A DNA stretch of 30,786 nucleotides from positions 1 through 30,786 of the IMG/VR virus record IMGVR_UViG_3300032073_000146. One strand, written 5' to 3'. Below are positions 2,409 through 18,540 of the stretch, piece after piece. A model generated the notes under the pieces. It searched no databases. It was given only the letters and a program-made list of their open reading frames with translations, and was not told where the DNA came from. A program made the translations under genes and the position numbers. The DNA is from a virus. How positions within the stretch are numbered: position 1 is the first letter of the stretch; the number at the start of each line of letters is the position of its first letter.

Positions 2409-3068
2409 TCAAGAGCCCTTTTTCAGTGCGACTACATTCGATCCGACAAGACTATGCAGATCGGCTTGCACTCTTTGTCTGAGGATCGGAGGGAGTGCGA
2501 TAATGGTATTAACAATCTCGTTCATGAGTTGCTCGTCTGTCATTCTATCATGCGCATCTATTGCTCCTTCTTCTGCATCGAGTGCTCGGAGCTCCTGCAT
2601 CAAAGACACGAGTTGTCTTTGCAGTGCTGCATATGCCTGCCATGATCCCGATTCCTTTGCTTTGTTCATCGCAAGACGTAACTCTGAGATCTGCGTATTC
2701 AAAAGATCTCTGTAGTCTACCTGCTCGGGCTTTGCGCTCGTCTCCTCTGCTGTCGGGATTGTGTGCTGTGCATCGTTCTTGTATCCATGTCTCCGGGATA
2801 GCAACCACATCGCACTTTTTACGTCTCCTTTAAATACTGCGTCTTGTATTGTTGCGAGTGCGTCAAGGGCTCCGAGAGATTCTGCTTCTCTGACTTTTTT
2901 TGCGAATGTCTTGAATGGTTCTTTGGCTCTTGTCTGCTCTCCTCTGTTGATCCATTTGTAAATCGTTGATCTTCCGACTCCGGAGATCTCCGCAGCGATC
3001 GCCATCGTTGCGCCCGTCCGAAGGGCTTTGCAGATTTTTTCTTGCGTCTCCTGTAATTTCTTGCTCAT
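2409..3068 (-). CDS. terS: Terminase small subunit
   Basis: This is the DNA-recognition subunit of the packaging terminase, predicted to bind the packaging site and stimulate TerL. The 219-residue protein has a clear N-terminal helix-turn-helix (about residues 16-44), with AAEISGVGRSTIYKWINRGE as the turn and recognition helix. A long helical middle follows (about 100-190) that would form the oligomer core. I chose the ATG at 3068 because it is preceded by AAGGAGACTACAAC; the frame opens further upstream, but without an ATG or a ribosome site. Neighbours are TerL and portal. The 98-bp gap upstream is the most likely packaging signal. Confidence 0.85.
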   Translation of the reverse strand: MSKKLQETQEKICKALRTGATMAIAAEISGVGRSTIYKWINRGEQTRAKEPFKTFAKKVREAESLGALDALATIQDAVFKGDVKSAMWLLSRRHGYKNDAQHTIPTAEETSAKPEQVDYRDLLNTQISELRLAMNKAKESGSWQAYAALQRQLVSLMQELRALDAEEGAIDAHDRMTDEQLMNEIVNTIIALPPILRQRVQADLHSLVGSNVVALKKGS

Positions 3069-3166
3069 GTTGTAGTCTCCTTGTTTTTTTTTTGAAAAAA
3101 ATAAATACGTTTCTCTAAAAGAGGTCGGTACGCGCAGTGCGGGGGGGGTTAGCCTAGACACATGGC
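3069..3166. other. Intergenic gap before terS, candidate pac/cos site
   Basis: This 98-bp gap is long for this compact genome. It holds a run of eight G at about 3141-3148 next to a GC-rich core (cgcgcagtgcg). Beyond that is a T/A-tract stretch (about 3083-3105) of the kind that bends DNA. A gap directly upstream of terS with a GC-rich core beside A-tracts is a common layout for terminase recognition sites. There is no direct proof of cutting here. It could instead be a 5' leader only. Confidence 0.35.
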
Positions 3167-3574
3167 CTATATCTGTCTGCGTCTCAGAGATTCGATCGTC
3201 CTTGCAATCGGCTCTGTTCTCAGTCTCTTCTGCTGATCCTGTACGCTCTCCGGCTCTCCGGTTCTCTTCGCTTCTATCCTGGCTCTTCGTGCGAGTATCT
3301 CTGCTCTTGCTAGTCGTCTCTTCTGTCGTTCTTGCTTTTGTCTGAGTGCTGTCGCTGCAGCAATAACTGCCTTCTCGATTGCTACCTGCTGGGATGTCTT
3401 GCGCGCTACTCCTCTCTCGTTTGCAATCTTGATCGTCAGCTCTCCTTGCGAGAACATCCGGAAGGCTGCGGCTGTTGCTCTGTCTTTGCGGATACCCTGC
3501 ATCCTGAGCTCATCGATCTTCTGGCTGATCGCTCTGTTCTCAGATATGTTTCGGTTCTTCTTGGCTCTGCTCAT
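3167..3574 (-). CDS. Basic, arginine-rich hypothetical protein
   Basis: The 135-residue protein is very rich in Arg, Lys, Gln and Ala. A long helical segment (about residues 60-105) contains runs such as RQKQERQKRRLARAEILARR. Such composition suits a nucleic-acid-binding or coiled-coil protein. The start MSRAKKNRN overlaps the upstream stop as ATGA. It is the second gene after the late promoter and precedes terS. No known fold or catalytic motif is visible and I do not recognise the family. Confidence 0.75.
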   Translation of the reverse strand: MSRAKKNRNISENRAISQKIDELRMQGIRKDRATAAAFRMFSQGELTIKIANERGVARKTSQQVAIEKAVIAAATALRQKQERQKRRLARAEILARRARIEAKRTGEPESVQDQQKRLRTEPIARTIESLRRRQI

Positions 3575-3690
3575 CAGGACTTCTTCTTCTTGTTCGTAGC
3601 TGTTCTGCTTCCTCGTTTCGGTTTGCTCGGGCTCTTCTTGGGTCTCTTGATCATCTTCTTGATCATCTTCTTTTGTGCTGACTTTGGCAT
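3574..3690 (-). CDS. Tiny lysine-rich protein, first gene of late operon
   Basis: This is a 38-residue protein, MPKSAQKKMIKKMIKRPKKS at the N-terminus and KKKKS at the C-terminus, with about half of the residues Lys or Arg. The ATG at 3690 has GAGAGGAATC immediately upstream, and the stop overlaps the next start as ATGA. It begins about 18 bases after the predicted transcription start of the late promoter. The charge suggests DNA or RNA binding, or a condensation peptide. No family is recognised. The frame stays open further upstream over the divergent promoter, but only the short form has a ribosome site. Confidence 0.7.
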   Translation of the reverse strand: MPKSAQKKMIKKMIKRPKKSPSKPKRGSRTATNKKKKS

Positions 3691-3714
3691 GATTCCTCTC
3701 CGATCTGTAGTATA

Positions 3715-3743
3715 ATTATACTGATATGATATACATTGTGCAA
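3715..3743 (-). promoter_or_regulatory. Strong leftward promoter of the packaging operon
   Basis: On the minus strand TTGCAC (3743-3738) is followed by a 17-base spacer and a perfect TATAAT (3720-3715). The predicted start is about 3708, just before the 38-residue gene. The -10 lies in a perfect 14-bp palindrome, AGTATAATTATACT (3709-3722). The upstream sequence TTGTTGCACA recurs exactly at the capsid promoter (25783-25774). Confidence 0.75.
3722..3730 (+). promoter_or_regulatory. Divergent rightward promoter (extended -10)
   Basis: TGATATGAT is an extended -10 (TGn plus TATGAT), 29 bases before the ATG of the plus-strand gene. A second -10, TATAAT at 3711-3716, is the other face of the palindrome used by the leftward promoter. 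No good -35 is seen. The two promoters overlap and probably compete. Confidence 0.5.
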
Positions 3744-8964: not shown

Positions 8965-9325
8965 CGGCTGAGATTACATGCAGCTCGATACTGGGTTCCT
9001 CGTCTGATGCTGCATAATACTTTGATGCCGATAGACTACAGACGACAGCATCGTCTTTTATAGGCAGAGCGTCAAGGACAGCCTTTATCATGTTGTCGAG
9101 ATCCGGGCGTTTGCTGTGGATCACTCGCTCTCCCTTCTTAAGTCTCTTTGGTCTTTTGACCACAAAGACGAGATCGACATGCAGTGCGCCCTCCGGGATG
9201 TGCATATCCGAAAGTCTCTCCCTCATGTCCTTGATCCAGATCTTATAATTCATCGGGTAGTATGTCCGTCCTTGTCTTGTCACTCTTGGACGTGGACACG
9301 CTATAGGGGGGATGTTGACTATCAT
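8945..9325 (-). CDS. RusA-family Holliday junction resolvase
   Basis: The 126-residue protein carries the RusA signature KRPDLDNMIKAVLDAL (72-87) with aspartates D75, D77 and D85, and a further pair at 91-92 (IKDDAVV). Length is close to the 120 residues of RusA. It would cut branched recombination or replication intermediates before packaging. I chose ATG 9325, which overlaps the upstream stop as ATGA and has AGGAG six bases before. An in-frame ATG eight codons earlier is less well placed. The stop lies in the hairpin at 8926-8956. Neighbours are a SWIM zinc-finger gene and the primase. Confidence 0.9.
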   Translation of the reverse strand: MIVNIPPIACPRPRVTRQGRTYYPMNYKIWIKDMRERLSDMHIPEGALHVDLVFVVKRPKRLKKGERVIHSKRPDLDNMIKAVLDALPIKDDAVVCSLSASKYYAASDEEPSIELHVISAEKKILR

Positions 9326-9600
9326 ACATGCTCCTGTCTTGACTTGCAAATGACTGCATGGATATGCTTACAATTACCCGTAAATAATGCACCTTGACAA
9401 ACACACGTAGCATGACTGCGCGAAGGATGAGGGAGTCTGCGCACGATTACTCTGTACACTCCGCCTCTCGTCTTGCTACGTACGTCTGCGAGTGTGACGA
9501 TACAGTCATAGCCTGCAATAACTTGCTTCTGTGTCTTGATATGGACGATCTCCACAGTCTCCGATCCTTTGATAATCTTGTCGCTGCTTCGTCTGATCAT
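9322..9600 (-). CDS. SWIM-type zinc-finger protein
   Basis: The 92-residue protein has a SWIM zinc motif, C66-x-C68-x8-C77-x-H79 (CVCQGALFTGNCKHIHAV), after a small beta-rich N-terminal part. SWIM fingers bind DNA or proteins and are found in recombination factors. Here it is placed directly before the RusA resolvase, so a role in recombination is likely. The ATG at 9600 overlaps the methyltransferase stop as ATGA and has GGAGG seven bases upstream, which decides against a longer form inside the methyltransferase. Confidence 0.85.
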   Translation of the reverse strand: MIRRSSDKIIKGSETVEIVHIKTQKQVIAGYDCIVTLADVRSKTRGGVYRVIVRRLPHPSRSHATCVCQGALFTGNCKHIHAVICKSRQEHV

Positions 9601-10517
9601 AGCAAGTCCTCCAATAATCCCGACTTGACAATCTGCTGTCCTACCCATTCGGAGCACTGAGGAACAATCGCATTTCCTAGGGCTCTAAGTCTGTCCAGCC
9701 TATTGGAAATCCCATCATCCACTCCACAAAGAGGGGAGACAGGACTTGTCTTTCCCCAGTATCTTTCTTTTTGAAATGAGTTATTAGAGTTGGAGTCTTT
9801 CTTGTATACTCCGCAGGATAGCCTCCCTCTTTCGCAAGATACGCTGTCGGAGTTGGCAGATTTCTGTGATCTCCCGCGCTGTATTTCATTCCCTTCTCGA
9901 CAAGGCGGACGAGTCCGCCCGTCCCCTGTTTGTCCGGGTCTGATGCTGTCGGAGTCGGCAGAAGAGCGCAGAGAAGATTTCTTCCTCCTTGCGCGTATGG
10001 TGTCCTTCTTTCGTCTCTTGTCGGAGTCGGCAGAATAAGCGACTGCAAACCATCGCCTGCGCAAATGCGGAGCTCCAAGGTCTCGAGCGGAAATAATTGT
10101 CCACTCTGTACAATACCCGATTTCGGCAAGCGATCCAACGACCTGACATCCTCCTCGAATAGAGATAGCTGCGACATTCTCCAACACGATAATTCTTGGT
10201 CGTAACTCGCTAATGATTCGTAACATTTCCCACCAAAGACCCGATTTCTTTCCATGTAATCCCTCTCCTTTTCCTGCTAATGATATATCTTGACAGGGAA
10301 ATCCTCCGCAAAGGATGTCTACTGCCTCGACTTTGTCTGCTGTTATATTTTTCACATCGTTGTATATTTTTGCTTTCGGCCAGTGCTTCGATAATACCTT
10401 CTGACAAAAAGGATTCTGCTCAGCTTGCCATACTGTTTCTGCTCCGGGGATTGCTCTCTCTAATCCGAGTTCAAAGCCTCCGATTCCGGAGAATAAAGAT
10501 CCTATTTTCACACTCAT
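9597..10517 (-). CDS. C5 cytosine DNA methyltransferase
   Basis: The 306-residue enzyme has the ordered C5 motifs: motif I GSLFSGIGGFELGLE (6-20), catalytic loop GGFPCQDIS with C75 (71-79), ENV (113-115), motif VIII HLRRRWF (151-157) and motif X RALGNAIVPQ near the C-terminus. The region between VIII and X (about 160-275), which should recognise the target, is low-complexity and rich in Ser, Arg and Asp. It is overlapped in another frame by a second gene. No restriction partner is present, so it is an orphan enzyme protecting phage DNA. ATG 10517 forms an ATGA overlap and has GGGGGA just upstream. Confidence 0.92.
   Translation of the reverse strand: MSVKIGSLFSGIGGFELGLERAIPGAETVWQAEQNPFCQKVLSKHWPKAKIYNDVKNITADKVEAVDILCGGFPCQDISLAGKGEGLHGKKSGLWWEMLRIISELRPRIIVLENVAAISIRGGCQVVGSLAEIGYCTEWTIISARDLGAPHLRRRWFAVAYSADSDKRRKKDTIRARRKKSSLRSSADSDSIRPGQTGDGRTRPPCREGNEIQRGRSQKSANSDSVSCERGRLSCGVYKKDSNSNNSFQKERYWGKTSPVSPLCGVDDGISNRLDRLRALGNAIVPQCSEWVGQQIVKSGLLEDLL
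9677..10255 (-). CDS. Nested out-of-frame gene inside the methyltransferase
   Basis: This 192-residue frame lies wholly inside the methyltransferase gene, same strand, different frame. Its ATG (10255) is preceded by AAAAGGAGAGGGATTAC, one of the strongest ribosome sites in the window. The protein has YESLASYDQELSCWRMSQLS near its start, then LPKSG, GQLFPLETLELR, three PTPT repeats and a C-terminus SPLFVEWMMGFPIGWTDLEP. From memory this combination is the hallmark of a phage protein family found next to or fused with C5 methyltransferases, not a chance frame. It stops just before methyltransferase motif X. QLSLF (29-33) also fits a sliding-clamp motif. It may act as a methyltransferase partner; function unproven. 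Confidence 0.78.
   Translation of the reverse strand: MERNRVFGGKCYESLASYDQELSCWRMSQLSLFEEDVRSLDRLPKSGIVQSGQLFPLETLELRICAGDGLQSLILPTPTRDERRTPYAQGGRNLLCALLPTPTASDPDKQGTGGLVRLVEKGMKYSAGDHRNLPTPTAYLAKEGGYPAEYTRKTPTLITHFKKKDTGERQVLSPLFVEWMMGFPIGWTDLEP
9845..10035. repeat. Short direct repeats in methyltransferase variable region
   Basis: TGTCGGAGTCGGCAGAA occurs exactly at 9947-9963 and 10019-10035, with a near copy at 9845-9860. In the minus-strand frames it encodes SADSD in the methyltransferase and LPTPT in the nested gene, so both proteins share the repeat expansion. Confidence 0.8.
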
Positions 10518-13508: not shown

Positions 13509-15277
13509 TGCGTTACTCTGATGTTATCGATCGGATTCTCTTGGTACATTATATCATATAGCCAGCTAGCCCCGTCGTATTGCTTCCCGACAATCTGTAC
13601 TGTTGAACTTGATAGTGATATATCGAGGTCTGTCAGCTCAATAACATCTCCGATCATCAGGTATCCGTAAGAAAATGCAGCTCTGTATGTGCAGACTTTT
13701 TCGGGTAGAGATTTGCGTCTCACATAATCAAGTCCGATCTTGATTGCTGTCTCTCTGTCGTGTACATAATCAAGAGCAATCGAAGAGCTCTGCACTCCGT
13801 ATCTCTGCTGTGAGATTATACAATATGGAGATACGATCTCATACGGAGCATTAACCCCCTCAAGTCTCTCTGCTCTGATCTGTATGATCCCTTTGTATTC
13901 GTTGCCTTCTACACTTGCACCATATCCCCAGCTATTTAATTGCACAGTCTGAGCAAAGCCCGAGGCATATTGTACAACAAGATCATTAACAATCTCCGAG
14001 TCTCTCGGAGTGACTGGAGTAATCCGCTCGAAGAGTGCGTCTGCGGTTATTATTGCTCTCGGATTGAGAAACAATTCTGTGTTACGATGATCGATCACAG
14101 GATAGATCCCTCTCGCACCTGTCGACAGAGTGACGGGTAAAAATGGAATGACATATTTCTGCAAGAATTCGTATGTCTTGATCGAGATGTCGTTGATATA
14201 TCCTGCAAATACATACTCGTTTAGCACAGGACGGACGGCTGCAAATGCTTCCTTATCGTAGTCGATCCGCAAAGACTCGAGAGCCCATGTAATCAAGTCT
14301 CCTCCTCTCTCAAGTGCGCCTCCGGAGAAGGGAGAGATCGATCCTCCTCCGTCAACCCATCTTACAAAATACTGCACACTGTTATTATTTGGATCAAAGT
14401 CGATCACTGTATTGTTAAAAAACACATACGCGAAGATCTCGCCCTTCTGTCCTACTCCATTATAAACCGTCTTGCCTGTTAATTTGTTGCCTCTGTTGTC
14501 TTGTACTGTGACTGTCGGAGCGTCTACAGTATGCCCTGCAATGATTAAAAATACATTCGGATTCGGGCCGACGAAGAAATCGACTGCTGCGACATATCCC
14601 GGAGTCGCTGCATAGTCTACTGCTGTGCCATCGATCCGATCTGTCTTGCCCGGAGATCCAATAACTGCAGGAACTGTCTTGCCCTGATGGTAATCATTTG
14701 CAAGCATTAATCCGTCTGTGTTTACAACGTCCTCGATCGGGCCGCCTCCGAGAAAAAACTCTCTTGAATATTGGAAGTTGTCGAAGAGGGTAAGATCTCC
14801 ATTTAGAGCTCTGAGCATGCTCGTATCATTGACATATATCTCGTTCTCGATTGAGAACTCTACGTATCCCTCGTCTGCATTTGGGTGTCCGTATACAGGC
14901 TCTCTGATCACTCCGCGAAAAAATGCGATCCGCTCCTCATATGTCTGCTCAGGTCTCCCTCTTTTGATCGTTACAAAATACATCGTGACGAGTGCATTAT
15001 CAATACCTACTCCGAGCATTTGTTTTCCAGCAACATTAAACGGGAATACCAAACCCATAGACATAGAGTTACTCGATAGTTTTATCTGTCCGATCTCGAG
15101 GAGCTCCTGTCGAAAGTCGGGATCGCTCAGTCTACCCTCATAAAAAGTCTGTCCTCCTCCGTTATTGTCTAGCTCAATTGGGAAGGAGGAGAACTTGTAT
15201 ATCGTGCCTTTGATGTCGACCTCTGCAAGGAAGCAGATCTCCGTCTCGAGGAAGTCGATCACAGGATAGACTCTCAT
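13505..15277 (-). CDS. Tail-tip/baseplate-type protein
   Basis: The 590-residue protein is beta-rich throughout, with no coiled coil. Sequence stretches such as RIAFFRGVIREP and VYGHPNADEGYVEF, and a C-terminal part with TDLDISLSSSTVQIVGKQYD, suggest a hub or tail-tip protein that begins the baseplate. It follows the large 1088-residue tail protein and precedes the lysin, the typical place for a tail-tip component. The start overlaps the previous gene as ATGA. Family not certain; it could also be a central fibre component. Confidence 0.7.
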   Translation of the reverse strand: MRVYPVIDFLETEICFLAEVDIKGTIYKFSSFPIELDNNGGGQTFYEGRLSDPDFRQELLEIGQIKLSSNSMSMGLVFPFNVAGKQMLGVGIDNALVTMYFVTIKRGRPEQTYEERIAFFRGVIREPVYGHPNADEGYVEFSIENEIYVNDTSMLRALNGDLTLFDNFQYSREFFLGGGPIEDVVNTDGLMLANDYHQGKTVPAVIGSPGKTDRIDGTAVDYAATPGYVAAVDFFVGPNPNVFLIIAGHTVDAPTVTVQDNRGNKLTGKTVYNGVGQKGEIFAYVFFNNTVIDFDPNNNSVQYFVRWVDGGGSISPFSGGALERGGDLITWALESLRIDYDKEAFAAVRPVLNEYVFAGYINDISIKTYEFLQKYVIPFLPVTLSTGARGIYPVIDHRNTELFLNPRAIITADALFERITPVTPRDSEIVNDLVVQYASGFAQTVQLNSWGYGASVEGNEYKGIIQIRAERLEGVNAPYEIVSPYCIISQQRYGVQSSSIALDYVHDRETAIKIGLDYVRRKSLPEKVCTYRAAFSYGYLMIGDVIELTDLDISLSSSTVQIVGKQYDGASWLYDIMYQENPIDNIRVTQ

Positions 15278-18200
15278 ATGACCTCCTGCAGAGTGAGTGT
15301 TGCGACTCTGGTTAGCTCTCCGGATACATTGACATTCTCATCTCCGAGGATGTTTTCGACTTGTACCTCTCCGGTTAGCATGACAAGAGCCTGCTCGTAC
15401 TCTCTCAAGAGCTCTCTGTAGTCTGAGTTCTGCACGATCAGAGGAATATATACGATCGGAGTCTTTGCGCCCTGTAGATAATCGAGCAATCCCTGCAGCA
15501 GATCGGGTACATCGTTCGCGATTGCAATGGGCTCTCCTGATGAAACATTTGCAATCCAATAGTCGGGATCTGGATTGTTGCCCTGTAGATCTGTTATGTC
15601 GATCCCTTCTGTCCATGCGATCCGGAACGTCCTGCGAGACGGTCGATAGTTGCGTGAGTACATAACCCCGGACTGAGTCTCTGTGCTCTCTGTACCCGAG
15701 TCGATACTGATCGTTCTCCCTCGTTGGTACTGCTTCCCCGGAATCAACACAGAGCCGATACTCATAAGTCCAATCCGTACATCGTTCTCGAGTGTGTCCT
15801 GTGCGATCACTCGCAATCCGAGAGCCTCTACTCTTTGACCGTTGAGATTTACGAGAAGCGTCATGTTGTTAGGTATCAACTCAATCGCTGTATTTGTTAT
15901 CCCGGAGATTGTGACTGCATCATCCAATAGGAGGACAGCCTGCTTTGTCGTTGTTGCTGTGCCTCCGAAGACTCCTTCTGAGTTACTAACGACAGTTCGC
16001 CATGCGTAATTCTCTCCTGTGCCCTGTATCCTGACTCTCCATCCTGCGCATTCATTGTATCTAAAATAGGGCTTATTGGATGCAGAAGTCTCTCCTCTCA
16101 CAGTTCTACCGGCTACGTTACATTTTGAGTTAATCGCTGTTTTAAAGGTGTCCAGTACAGACCACGTACCAGAGCTGTAGTACTCAAGTTTTGCGTCTCT
16201 GAAGTTATACCCGGAGAGATGGATTCCAACAATATCATTAGGGAGGCTCTCGTCTACATGTATTGTTACGTCTGAGTCTAACTTTACAGCAATAAACTGC
16301 TCCGGAACATTCCCAGAACCAACAGCAACACTCTTCCAATAAACCCGAGGAGTCGGAGATACTGCATACAGTGTATTATTAATCGTGAATTGACTGTCCG
16401 GAGTTATCGTGTACTCGTCCCCTCTGTATGTCTGTCCGTCTCCTGTCGAGATAGATACATTGTCTGCAACATATGCGAATCTTTCGATCGTTGGATATGC
16501 TCTGTGCATGAGGTCGTCAGGATTGGAGAAGGTGTGCAATTGCTGCGAGATTTGGAAGCCCTGCGCAAAAGAGATCGAGCTCCATACAGTCTCGAATGTC
16601 CCGCCTGTAGTCTGTAGGTTACCCCACTTGATTCTCTGCTGAGAACTTCCTCCGCCTCCTCCGTCTGTCAGAGAAGAACTTGTCCCTGCGTCAACCCATG
16701 CACGAGTGTTACCGTCTGCGTCTACATCTCGATAGTATACAGATATTGTATCGTTCGATATGCATACAAGAAGCTCTACTGTATTTAGAGATAGAGATCC
16801 GATTGTGATCAGGTCTGCACTGCCATTCATGTCTCGGACTTTGATCGTAGTCGGAGAGACTCTTACCTCTGCTTCGTAGTCTTCTGTCGTATCGTCGATC
16901 TTGAGATTAATCCCTCGGAATGTGTTTATTGTGTTGCCTCCTACCATCGAAGAGATCCGAGCATGCACAATCAATCCCTTCCCGATAATGTCTGCTGTCG
17001 GTAGACCGATCAGAGTAGGAGTTACAGTAAAGTATTCTTGGTTTTGTATGAATACTCCCTCAGAATGTAAAGCCTCTCCGCCCGATATGGCTGTCTTTGT
17101 TACTCCTGTAAAATTCGAAAATAGATCCACAGCAGGATAATTATATCCGTATGCTAGTCTATTCCATTCGCTGTTCGAGCTGTTTTCTTGGATAGCAGGA
17201 GGAAGAGTTACAGAGCTGTATCCGCCCATTGACAGCATACATATACTTCTGTTTGTGGCAGTTGATACAGGTTCGCACAATATGACAGTCTTGCCTGCCC
17301 ACGAGAGAGCATAACTATTCTCGATCATGCTGTTGTTATCTCCTGTTCTGAGTGCTCTCCCTGCTCCGTTTATGTCTGCACCCATAACTCGCCACTGTAT
17401 CGCATCCTCTGACCATGAGATCCGATACTCTCCGCCTCCTGCGCTATTTCTGGCGAGTACATGATGAGAGGCTCCCTCGTCTGTCCAGATCGACAGGTCT
17501 CCGTCTGTCATGACATCATTTGTCCCGGAGCAGGTTGCTCCTGCGATCTCAATAAGTGCTCCTGCTGTCCTGAGTGTGTGTACACTTGTAAAGGCAGAGG
17601 GAAGAGTCATATAGCTAGGTTTCTTGTCTCCATAAAAACCAAATCGAAAGATTCCCTTGTTCGCATACAGGTCGATACTGTGAAAAGAATGATCATCGAT
17701 CTGATCTGCTGTGGTGATCTGCACAAAAGATCCTCCGAGATCGGAAGAGGCATATTGTATAACCCTGTTTCTTTTTGTTGCGCCTGTATTGTTCCATAGG
17801 GATTCTATCAACAATAAGACGACACCATTTGTCTGTGCAAGTCTTACTCTTTTTATGTTGTGCGTGTCTCCAACCAAAAGACCAACAGGAAGAGAATCAG
17901 CTAAGGCTTTTTTCGCTCTGAGTGTCCACGTGCTCCCATTTTGCGAAGTGTATGTTCTCAAGTTTACCGATGTAGTAGAGCCTGCTAGATGACACAGCAA
18001 ATAACTCCCATCAGGTAAAATACACATATCTGACAATAGATTGTAATTTGTAGTTAATGACGTATCCGAAAAGACTGTCGTATCTGTTATCGTCCCGTTT
18101 ACCTGTAATTTAGAAACAACACAAAGCTTAGACACAGCAGTACGTTTCTGATGAGAGATCAATAGATTATTGCTCAGTGTATTTAGTCCTGCAGGGAACT

Positions 18201-18540
18201 GATAATTTGTTGCTGTTGTATCCGAAAACTTTATATTTTGGAATCTCGAAAGAGCATTCTGCGGATCTCGTCCGTATGTTGTACTTGTCTGATTGTCTGT
18301 GAATACAAACCCTGCTGTATATCCTGCGTACCCTGCTCTCTGTGTCTTGATTGTCAAAGACGAAGAGCCACTCTGTGCTCCCTTTGCAACAATCTGCATA
18401 GGACTATTTTGAGATGGAATAGGGTCGCCGGCTCTCTCGTCTGCTGTTGTAAAAGTGCTCTGTGCTGTCCATACGTTATTTATCCCTACCGACAAAGGGA
18501 CAAGAAACCCTCTTAGATATGGTGGTGTAACATTCGCCAT
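15274..18540 (-). CDS. Large distal tail/receptor-interacting protein
   Basis: The 1088-residue protein is beta-rich. From about residue 100 to 450 there are repeated blade-like elements (for example SDMCILPDGSYLLCHLAG and YRISWSEDAIQWRVMG) that resemble beta-propeller or BNR-type repeats. A middle lectin-like segment (about 480-680) and a C-terminal part with strand and Ig-like elements follow. The size and position directly after the tape measure point to a tail-tip protein that contacts the host, perhaps glycan-binding. TAATG overlaps the tape measure stop. No catalytic motif is clear. Confidence 0.7.
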   Translation of the reverse strand: MANVTPPYLRGFLVPLSVGINNVWTAQSTFTTADERAGDPIPSQNSPMQIVAKGAQSGSSSLTIKTQRAGYAGYTAGFVFTDNQTSTTYGRDPQNALSRFQNIKFSDTTATNYQFPAGLNTLSNNLLISHQKRTAVSKLCVVSKLQVNGTITDTTVFSDTSLTTNYNLLSDMCILPDGSYLLCHLAGSTTSVNLRTYTSQNGSTWTLRAKKALADSLPVGLLVGDTHNIKRVRLAQTNGVVLLLIESLWNNTGATKRNRVIQYASSDLGGSFVQITTADQIDDHSFHSIDLYANKGIFRFGFYGDKKPSYMTLPSAFTSVHTLRTAGALIEIAGATCSGTNDVMTDGDLSIWTDEGASHHVLARNSAGGGEYRISWSEDAIQWRVMGADINGAGRALRTGDNNSMIENSYALSWAGKTVILCEPVSTATNRSICMLSMGGYSSVTLPPAIQENSSNSEWNRLAYGYNYPAVDLFSNFTGVTKTAISGGEALHSEGVFIQNQEYFTVTPTLIGLPTADIIGKGLIVHARISSMVGGNTINTFRGINLKIDDTTEDYEAEVRVSPTTIKVRDMNGSADLITIGSLSLNTVELLVCISNDTISVYYRDVDADGNTRAWVDAGTSSSLTDGGGGGSSQQRIKWGNLQTTGGTFETVWSSISFAQGFQISQQLHTFSNPDDLMHRAYPTIERFAYVADNVSISTGDGQTYRGDEYTITPDSQFTINNTLYAVSPTPRVYWKSVAVGSGNVPEQFIAVKLDSDVTIHVDESLPNDIVGIHLSGYNFRDAKLEYYSSGTWSVLDTFKTAINSKCNVAGRTVRGETSASNKPYFRYNECAGWRVRIQGTGENYAWRTVVSNSEGVFGGTATTTKQAVLLLDDAVTISGITNTAIELIPNNMTLLVNLNGQRVEALGLRVIAQDTLENDVRIGLMSIGSVLIPGKQYQRGRTISIDSGTESTETQSGVMYSRNYRPSRRTFRIAWTEGIDITDLQGNNPDPDYWIANVSSGEPIAIANDVPDLLQGLLDYLQGAKTPIVYIPLIVQNSDYRELLREYEQALVMLTGEVQVENILGDENVNVSGELTRVATLTLQEVI

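Follow-up and report, generated by a model that had tools for sequence, protein, structure and literature searches.

A gene nested out of frame inside a phage-borne C5 cytosine methyltransferase gene is a real, selected gene. Together the two frames very probably encode a C5 methyltransferase made of two subunits, as M.EcoHK31I is, its parts divided between overlapping reading frames. The window analyzed is the whole stretch of 30,786 nt (IMG/VR record IMGVR_UViG_3300032073_000146, positions 1 to 30,786). The large subunit is called alpha and the nested protein beta. Translation of beta, its pairing with alpha into a heterodimer, the activity and DNA target of that enzyme and its biological role are what we infer from the computed features described below. 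The features of the locus, all on the minus strand, are as follows.

9597..10517, minus strand: alpha, C5 cytosine methyltransferase large subunit, 306 aa (PF00145, phrog_363, M.HhaI superposition)
10023..10517, minus strand: alpha motifs I-VIII (catalytic PCQ, ENV), large domain (AlphaFold pLDDT about 97; invariant columns)
9708..10022, minus strand: alpha linker (about residues 166-270), sequence not conserved, frame kept open (pLDDT about 40 over 200-265; stop avoidance)
9600..9698, minus strand: alpha motif X (RALGNAIVPQ) and C-terminal helix (pLDDT 91-97; alpha position 3 most variable)
10256..10272, minus strand: putative ribosome-binding site AAAAGGAGAGGG and spacer before the beta ATG (sequence; ATG column kept in relatives)
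9677..10255, minus strand: beta, nested 192-aa protein in the +1 frame of alpha (phrog_1008, 1.3e-20; 107 phage records; 335 genome-contig relatives)
10040..10255, minus strand: beta N-terminal part, overprinted on alpha motifs V-VIII (+1 stops 0 vs 104 expected)
9746..10039, minus strand: beta target-recognition region (TRD), three LPTPT blocks (beta position 3 most variable; in-frame LPTP in L338 and L355)
9680..9745, minus strand: beta motif IX, LSPLFVEWMMGFPIGWTDLEP (invariant residues; L338 equivalent)
10019..10033, minus strand: repeat copy 1, LPTPT (beta) and SADSD (alpha)
9947..9961, minus strand: repeat copy 2, LPTPT (beta) and SADSD (alpha)
9845..9859, minus strand: repeat copy 3, LPTPT (beta) and SANSD (alpha)

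The alpha frame runs from ATG 10517 (306 aa) or from 10529 (310 aa) to the stop at 9597. The initial annotation had placed a 192-residue frame within the methyltransferase gene in another frame, and it was found there at 10255-9677 on the minus strand, in +1. The +1 frame of the alpha gene is open over 199 codons. An open run of at least 199 codons arose in 1 of 20,000 synonymous-codon shuffles of the methyltransferase (shuffle median, 95), and +1 runs in the other large window genes checked never exceeded 114 codons. A 1088-aa gene elsewhere in the window (15274-18540, minus strand) has a +2 open run of 176 codons; the gene itself has no Pfam match. Next to alpha, a small gene (9322-9600, minus strand) has a start that overlaps the alpha stop codon; its CxCxnCxH pattern (CVCQ...CKHI) resembles a SWIM-type zinc finger, and its phrog_29279 match is weak (0.005).

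A profile search, proposed when the 192-residue protein was first noted, matched beta to phrog_1008 (1.3e-20), so homologues exist. tblastn located beta in 107 phage records, and relatives were found in viral contigs (162) and genome contigs (335), the best 80 of the 335 coming from Pseudomonadota, Actinomycetota, Verrucomicrobia, archaeal MAGs and others. Streptomyces and Mycobacterium phage records often carry two overlapping genes that are both annotated 'DNA methylase'; elsewhere the second gene usually goes unannotated, and the records examined for Leptospira, Acinetobacter phage and E. coli annotate alpha only. Beta lies in the +1 frame of an alpha in 85 of the 88 sequences of the first survey (exceptions L047, L048 and L080) and at 81 of 82 plasmid and genome loci. 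Because these loci had been picked by beta, a separate search was made with alpha residues 1-160 only. Beta was present in +1 in 76 of the 77 loci from this search that were long enough to judge, and in the 77th (L210) by eye.

Several loci stand apart. The viral contigs L047 and L048 have a 1-nt shift relative to L046 that disrupts both frames, either a degraded copy or a sequencing error. The nested pair of E. coli PCP07014 (L173, 2498-3259, plus strand) is annotated as a pseudogene with an internal stop; its alpha and beta frames each have a stop, the two lying near each other. An E. coli PT62 prophage (L255, 232-1218 and 575-1156, plus strand) encodes a lambdoid-type C5 methyltransferase (MIHAAYYN... 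family) with a beta-like +1 protein that is unannotated in the record, matches phrog_31772 and phrog_1008, and contains GWPTPVAND and LNPAHSRWLMGLPRAW. The same family and its beta-like +1 protein recur in L256-L335. The lambdoid-type methyltransferase had been considered as a negative control and was dropped when the beta-like protein was found there; the single-chain relatives L338 and L355 were used instead.

Stop codons were counted in 64 non-redundant loci of the alpha-only set, with expectations taken from synonymous shuffles. Over alpha motifs V-VIII there were 0 stops in +1 against 104.2 expected and 152 stops in +2 against 168.4 expected, and in the non-overlapping N-terminal region of alpha +1 stops numbered 187 against 195.8 expected. 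The per-frame synonymous constraint that the initial annotation had named as a check is thus present in the nested frame. With the beta protein held fixed, the alpha frame of the linker has 33 stops where 513.5 were expected (184 loci). The valine of VEWxMG is coded GTT, which would place TGA in alpha, in only 1 of 151 cases.

Codon-phase counts were made on independent pairs whose alphas are at least 80% identical. Before the overlap, alpha positions 1, 2 and 3 showed 0.088, 0.046 and 0.254 differences per site. Position 3 is lower within motifs V-VIII (0.182-0.202), and judged from these counts the motifs are under dual constraint. Alignments guided by beta could bias the counts toward beta, and the linker was therefore recounted on a frame-neutral DNA alignment. 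There alpha position 1, which is beta position 3, reached 0.362 against 0.136 and 0.123 at the other positions, and beta position 3 was the most variable in 13 of 14 pairs. Variation follows the beta frame through the motif IX stretch and returns to the alpha frame at motif X (0.165, 0.122 and 0.357 at positions 1-3). These codon-phase flips indicate that the coding frame is that of beta across the TRD and motif IX, and that of alpha across motifs I-VIII and motif X.

The chance that the nested frame is a by-product of the alpha amino-acid sequence and codon bias is negligible. Some beta motifs (SWKTSQ, LPxSGM) do overlie conserved alpha motifs VI-VIII, but the explanation is contradicted by the synonymous-shuffle tests and by the codon-phase flips, and the single-chain relatives do not keep +1 open downstream. 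The linker of L338 and L355, a small control of two loci, has 11 stops in +1 against 9.1 expected, which is no constraint. The overlap does qualify the protein hallmarks that had been read in the nested frame: LPTPT and FVEWMMGFP are independent of alpha, whereas WRMSQ and LPKSGxxxxGxLF coincide with conserved alpha motifs VI-VIII, which in part determine them.

Alpha has the PCQ, ENV and RxR motifs and the large-domain fold of a C5 methyltransferase, and it matches phrog_363 (7.9e-76). The PCQ, EN and motif VIII A/H/R/R columns are invariant in the alpha alignment. The PF00145 match (4e-45) covers residues 4-173 only (profile positions 2-173 of 324), and because it stops at profile position 173 the C-terminal half of alpha is unaccounted for. 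An AlphaFold model built with 73 sequences has a pLDDT of about 97 over residues 1-165, about 40 over residues 200-265 and above 90 at motif X. The model can be superposed on residues 10-325 of M.HhaI (198 residues, rmsd 2.3 A, Z 24.9), which is consistent with an alpha that would lack the small domain only. By DNA position the TRD and motif IX are present between motifs VIII and X, but in the +1 frame.

Beta is poorly predicted alone (pLDDT 56.5). No relevant match to beta was found in Pfam or NCBIfam, its profile gave only chance matches among PDB sequences, and a fold search with the predicted beta structure matched no solved structure. The negative fold search does not point to a new fold, since half of a split domain is not expected to fold alone. 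Identification of the TRD therefore rests on fusion relatives and motif position. The viral contig L338 encodes a single chain in which motifs I-VIII, the LLPTPAARD and LPPTPRATDG blocks, SPAFTEWMMGLPGGW and LKALGNGVVPQQA all occupy one frame. Its equivalent of beta motif IX, SPAFTEWMMGLP, lies directly before motif X in the same frame, and the L338 +1 frame is interrupted by stops downstream. A second viral contig, L355, is of the same kind; in both, the frame of motifs I-VIII also carries LPTP blocks, an EWMMGLP-type motif and LGNGVVP. As the single-chain relatives carry the LPTP and EWMMG-type motifs in frame, the LPTPT region and FVEWMMGFP of beta are the TRD and motif IX. E178, M181 and G182 of beta are invariant in 62 sequences, and the actinophage betas match the methyltransferase profiles phrog_116 and phrog_363 in their C-terminal parts. 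The TRD is hypervariable in length and sequence between conserved flanks, which fits a specificity domain.

The 17-bp repeat occurs in three copies inside the nested frame (10033-10019, 9961-9947 and 9859-9845). It encodes peptides in both frames, as originally described, but the proposal that the repeats shaped both proteins does not stand, LPTPT being a conserved TRD motif and not a local expansion. The idea of overprinting in the target-recognition region is correct in that a second selected protein is encoded there; the C-terminal half of beta is instead the enzyme's own TRD and motif IX displaced to another frame. The truly overprinted segments are the beta N-terminal part, over alpha motifs V-VIII, and the disordered alpha linker, over the TRD. 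The single chains have nothing that corresponds to the beta N-terminal part, whose conservation is dictated in part by the conserved motifs of alpha. Since its frame stays open, this part is presumably translated.

It is most improbable that beta is an independent overprinted protein, such as a regulator, inhibitor or anti-restriction protein, that acts outside the enzyme. Its N-terminal third, which overprints the catalytic domain, resembles no known fold, and one extra beta is free-standing (L135), as an independent protein might be. Yet LPTPT and EWMMGFP correspond to the TRD and motif IX of the single-chain relatives, and alpha lacks exactly those elements. The suggestion that the nested protein is a methyltransferase partner is supported by this complementarity. 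In the two-subunit enzyme, alpha would provide motifs I-VIII, which form the catalytic large domain, and, at the far end of the disordered linker, motif X. Beta would provide the small domain in trans: motif IX and the TRD that holds the LPTPT blocks. The beta small domain is predicted to dock on the alpha catalytic domain to form one heterodimeric enzyme. The assembled enzyme would methylate phage DNA, most likely against host restriction.

The beta ATG is directly preceded by AAAAGGAGAGGGATTAC, and the strong ribosome site noted initially in front of the nested ATG is present as AAGGAGAGGG. Among 15 relatives whose alpha is at least 60% identical, the ATG column is unchanged in 14, behind a purine-rich ribosome site, and the alpha residue at this column varies among His, Asp and Asn. 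A stop codon lies immediately 5' of the beta ATG in the beta frame in 4 of the 15 (L073, L181, L183 and L192), and L018, L026 and L029 are further cases. Beta start positions differ in distant clades. The conserved ATG, the ribosome site and the preceding stops fit internal initiation and disfavor frameshifting as the main route; translation of beta would accordingly begin at ATG 10255, in +1. If ribosomes instead passed from alpha into +1 by programmed frameshifting, the product would be a fused chain with motifs I-VIII, the TRD and motif IX, and there would be no separate subunit. Beta is always exactly in +1, and a fused chain would restore the motif order of single-chain L338, both as frameshifting would have it. 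This route is nonetheless very unlikely: a fusion needs no open +1 frame over motifs V-VIII, where every expected stop is missing, the ATG and ribosome site are conserved and in some relatives follow a stop, and the fused chain would lack motif X, which remains in alpha.

The relatives fall into four states of frame partition. In the first the enzyme is a single chain (L338, L355). In the second the TRD is in +1 and motifs IX and X are in alpha (L080/L337, L339, L341, L353, L354, L362, L364 and L370). In the third, found in the window and most relatives, the TRD and motif IX are in +1 and motif X is in alpha. In the fourth the TRD and motifs IX and X are all in +1 (actinophages L002, L003 and L004, plasmid L091, and L119, L139 and L250). 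Paired compensating frameshifts, the downstream one shifting along the gene, would explain the four states.

The Actinomycetota MAG SZAS-10 (L135) is an exception to the +1 rule, with an extra, free-standing beta. This second beta homologue (2764-3735, plus strand) lies downstream of a normal nested pair and has LPTPT-type blocks and LNPTWVEWLMGFPIGW; its overlapping frames contain no methyltransferase catalytic motif. It is possibly an alternative specificity subunit. A tentative joint reading, which we regard as possible without favoring it, is that the two-frame split is the rule in the clade, that the switch point moved stepwise, and that beta is an exchangeable specificity subunit, so that different betas could retarget a single alpha. 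If so, many database 'DNA cytosine methyltransferase' proteins would be half-enzymes without the specificity part.

Automatic annotation names alpha a complete methyltransferase and overlooks the subunit that would read the DNA. If the two-subunit reading holds, attempts to predict phage methylation specificity, or to clone alpha alone, would fail in this clade. The locus is a widely replicated case of a protein domain displaced to another frame with both frames under selection, and the single-chain and intermediate relatives allow the steps of the displacement to be reconstructed. The arrangement is of a known kind, that of M.EcoHK31I, and the pair is already annotated in many actinobacteriophages. 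No general description of the nested family was found in the literature searched, and there its near-universality in the clade, the consistent +1 phase, the placement of the TRD and the series of partitions appear undescribed.

The closest parallel in arrangement is M.EcoHK31I (YGGCCR), a two-polypeptide C5 methyltransferase (Lee, Kam and Shaw 1995). Its beta subunit is about 176 aa long and comes from a different reading frame within an alpha of roughly 309 aa; the window small polypeptide is likewise read from another frame inside the large gene. The large subunit of M.EcoHK31I contains motifs I-VIII and X and the predicted TRD, and the small subunit only motif IX (PMC3404938). Window alpha similarly holds motifs I-VIII and X, and window beta motif IX. 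The two differ in that the M.EcoHK31I TRD was predicted in the large subunit and the window TRD is placed in the small one by selection and by the fusion relatives, and in that the window locus is phage-borne. No restriction enzyme was recognized among the window genes checked. If the families are homologous, the comparison, made with M.EcoHK31I by description, suggests that the TRD of M.EcoHK31I-type enzymes may lie in the small subunit.

M.AquI (CYCGRG) is also divided into two polypeptides between motif VIII and the end of the enzyme, with motifs IX-X in its small subunit (PMC3404938). Motif X of the window enzyme is in alpha, unlike that of M.AquI, and the M.AquI-like cut is present in the relatives of the fourth state. 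A Picosynechococcus plasmid match, considered with M.AquI in mind, is not obviously a split enzyme. Homologous +1 betas, annotated as a second DNA methylase, are found in Streptomyces phage Sebastisaurus (genes 34/35) and in mycobacteriophages Catalina and Phanphagia (65/66; phrog_1008). In these actinophage pairs alpha ends short of motif X and the genes as annotated overlap only in part, whereas window beta is fully nested. The ShiLan domain likewise places a second protein within a phage DNA methylase gene, out of frame; it is a patchy homing insertion that encodes an HNH endonuclease (PMC11855218). No HNH endonuclease was recognized in the nested frame by Pfam, and beta matches phrog_1008 instead. 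In contrast to the ShiLan domain, window beta is near-universal in its clade and would be part of the enzyme itself.
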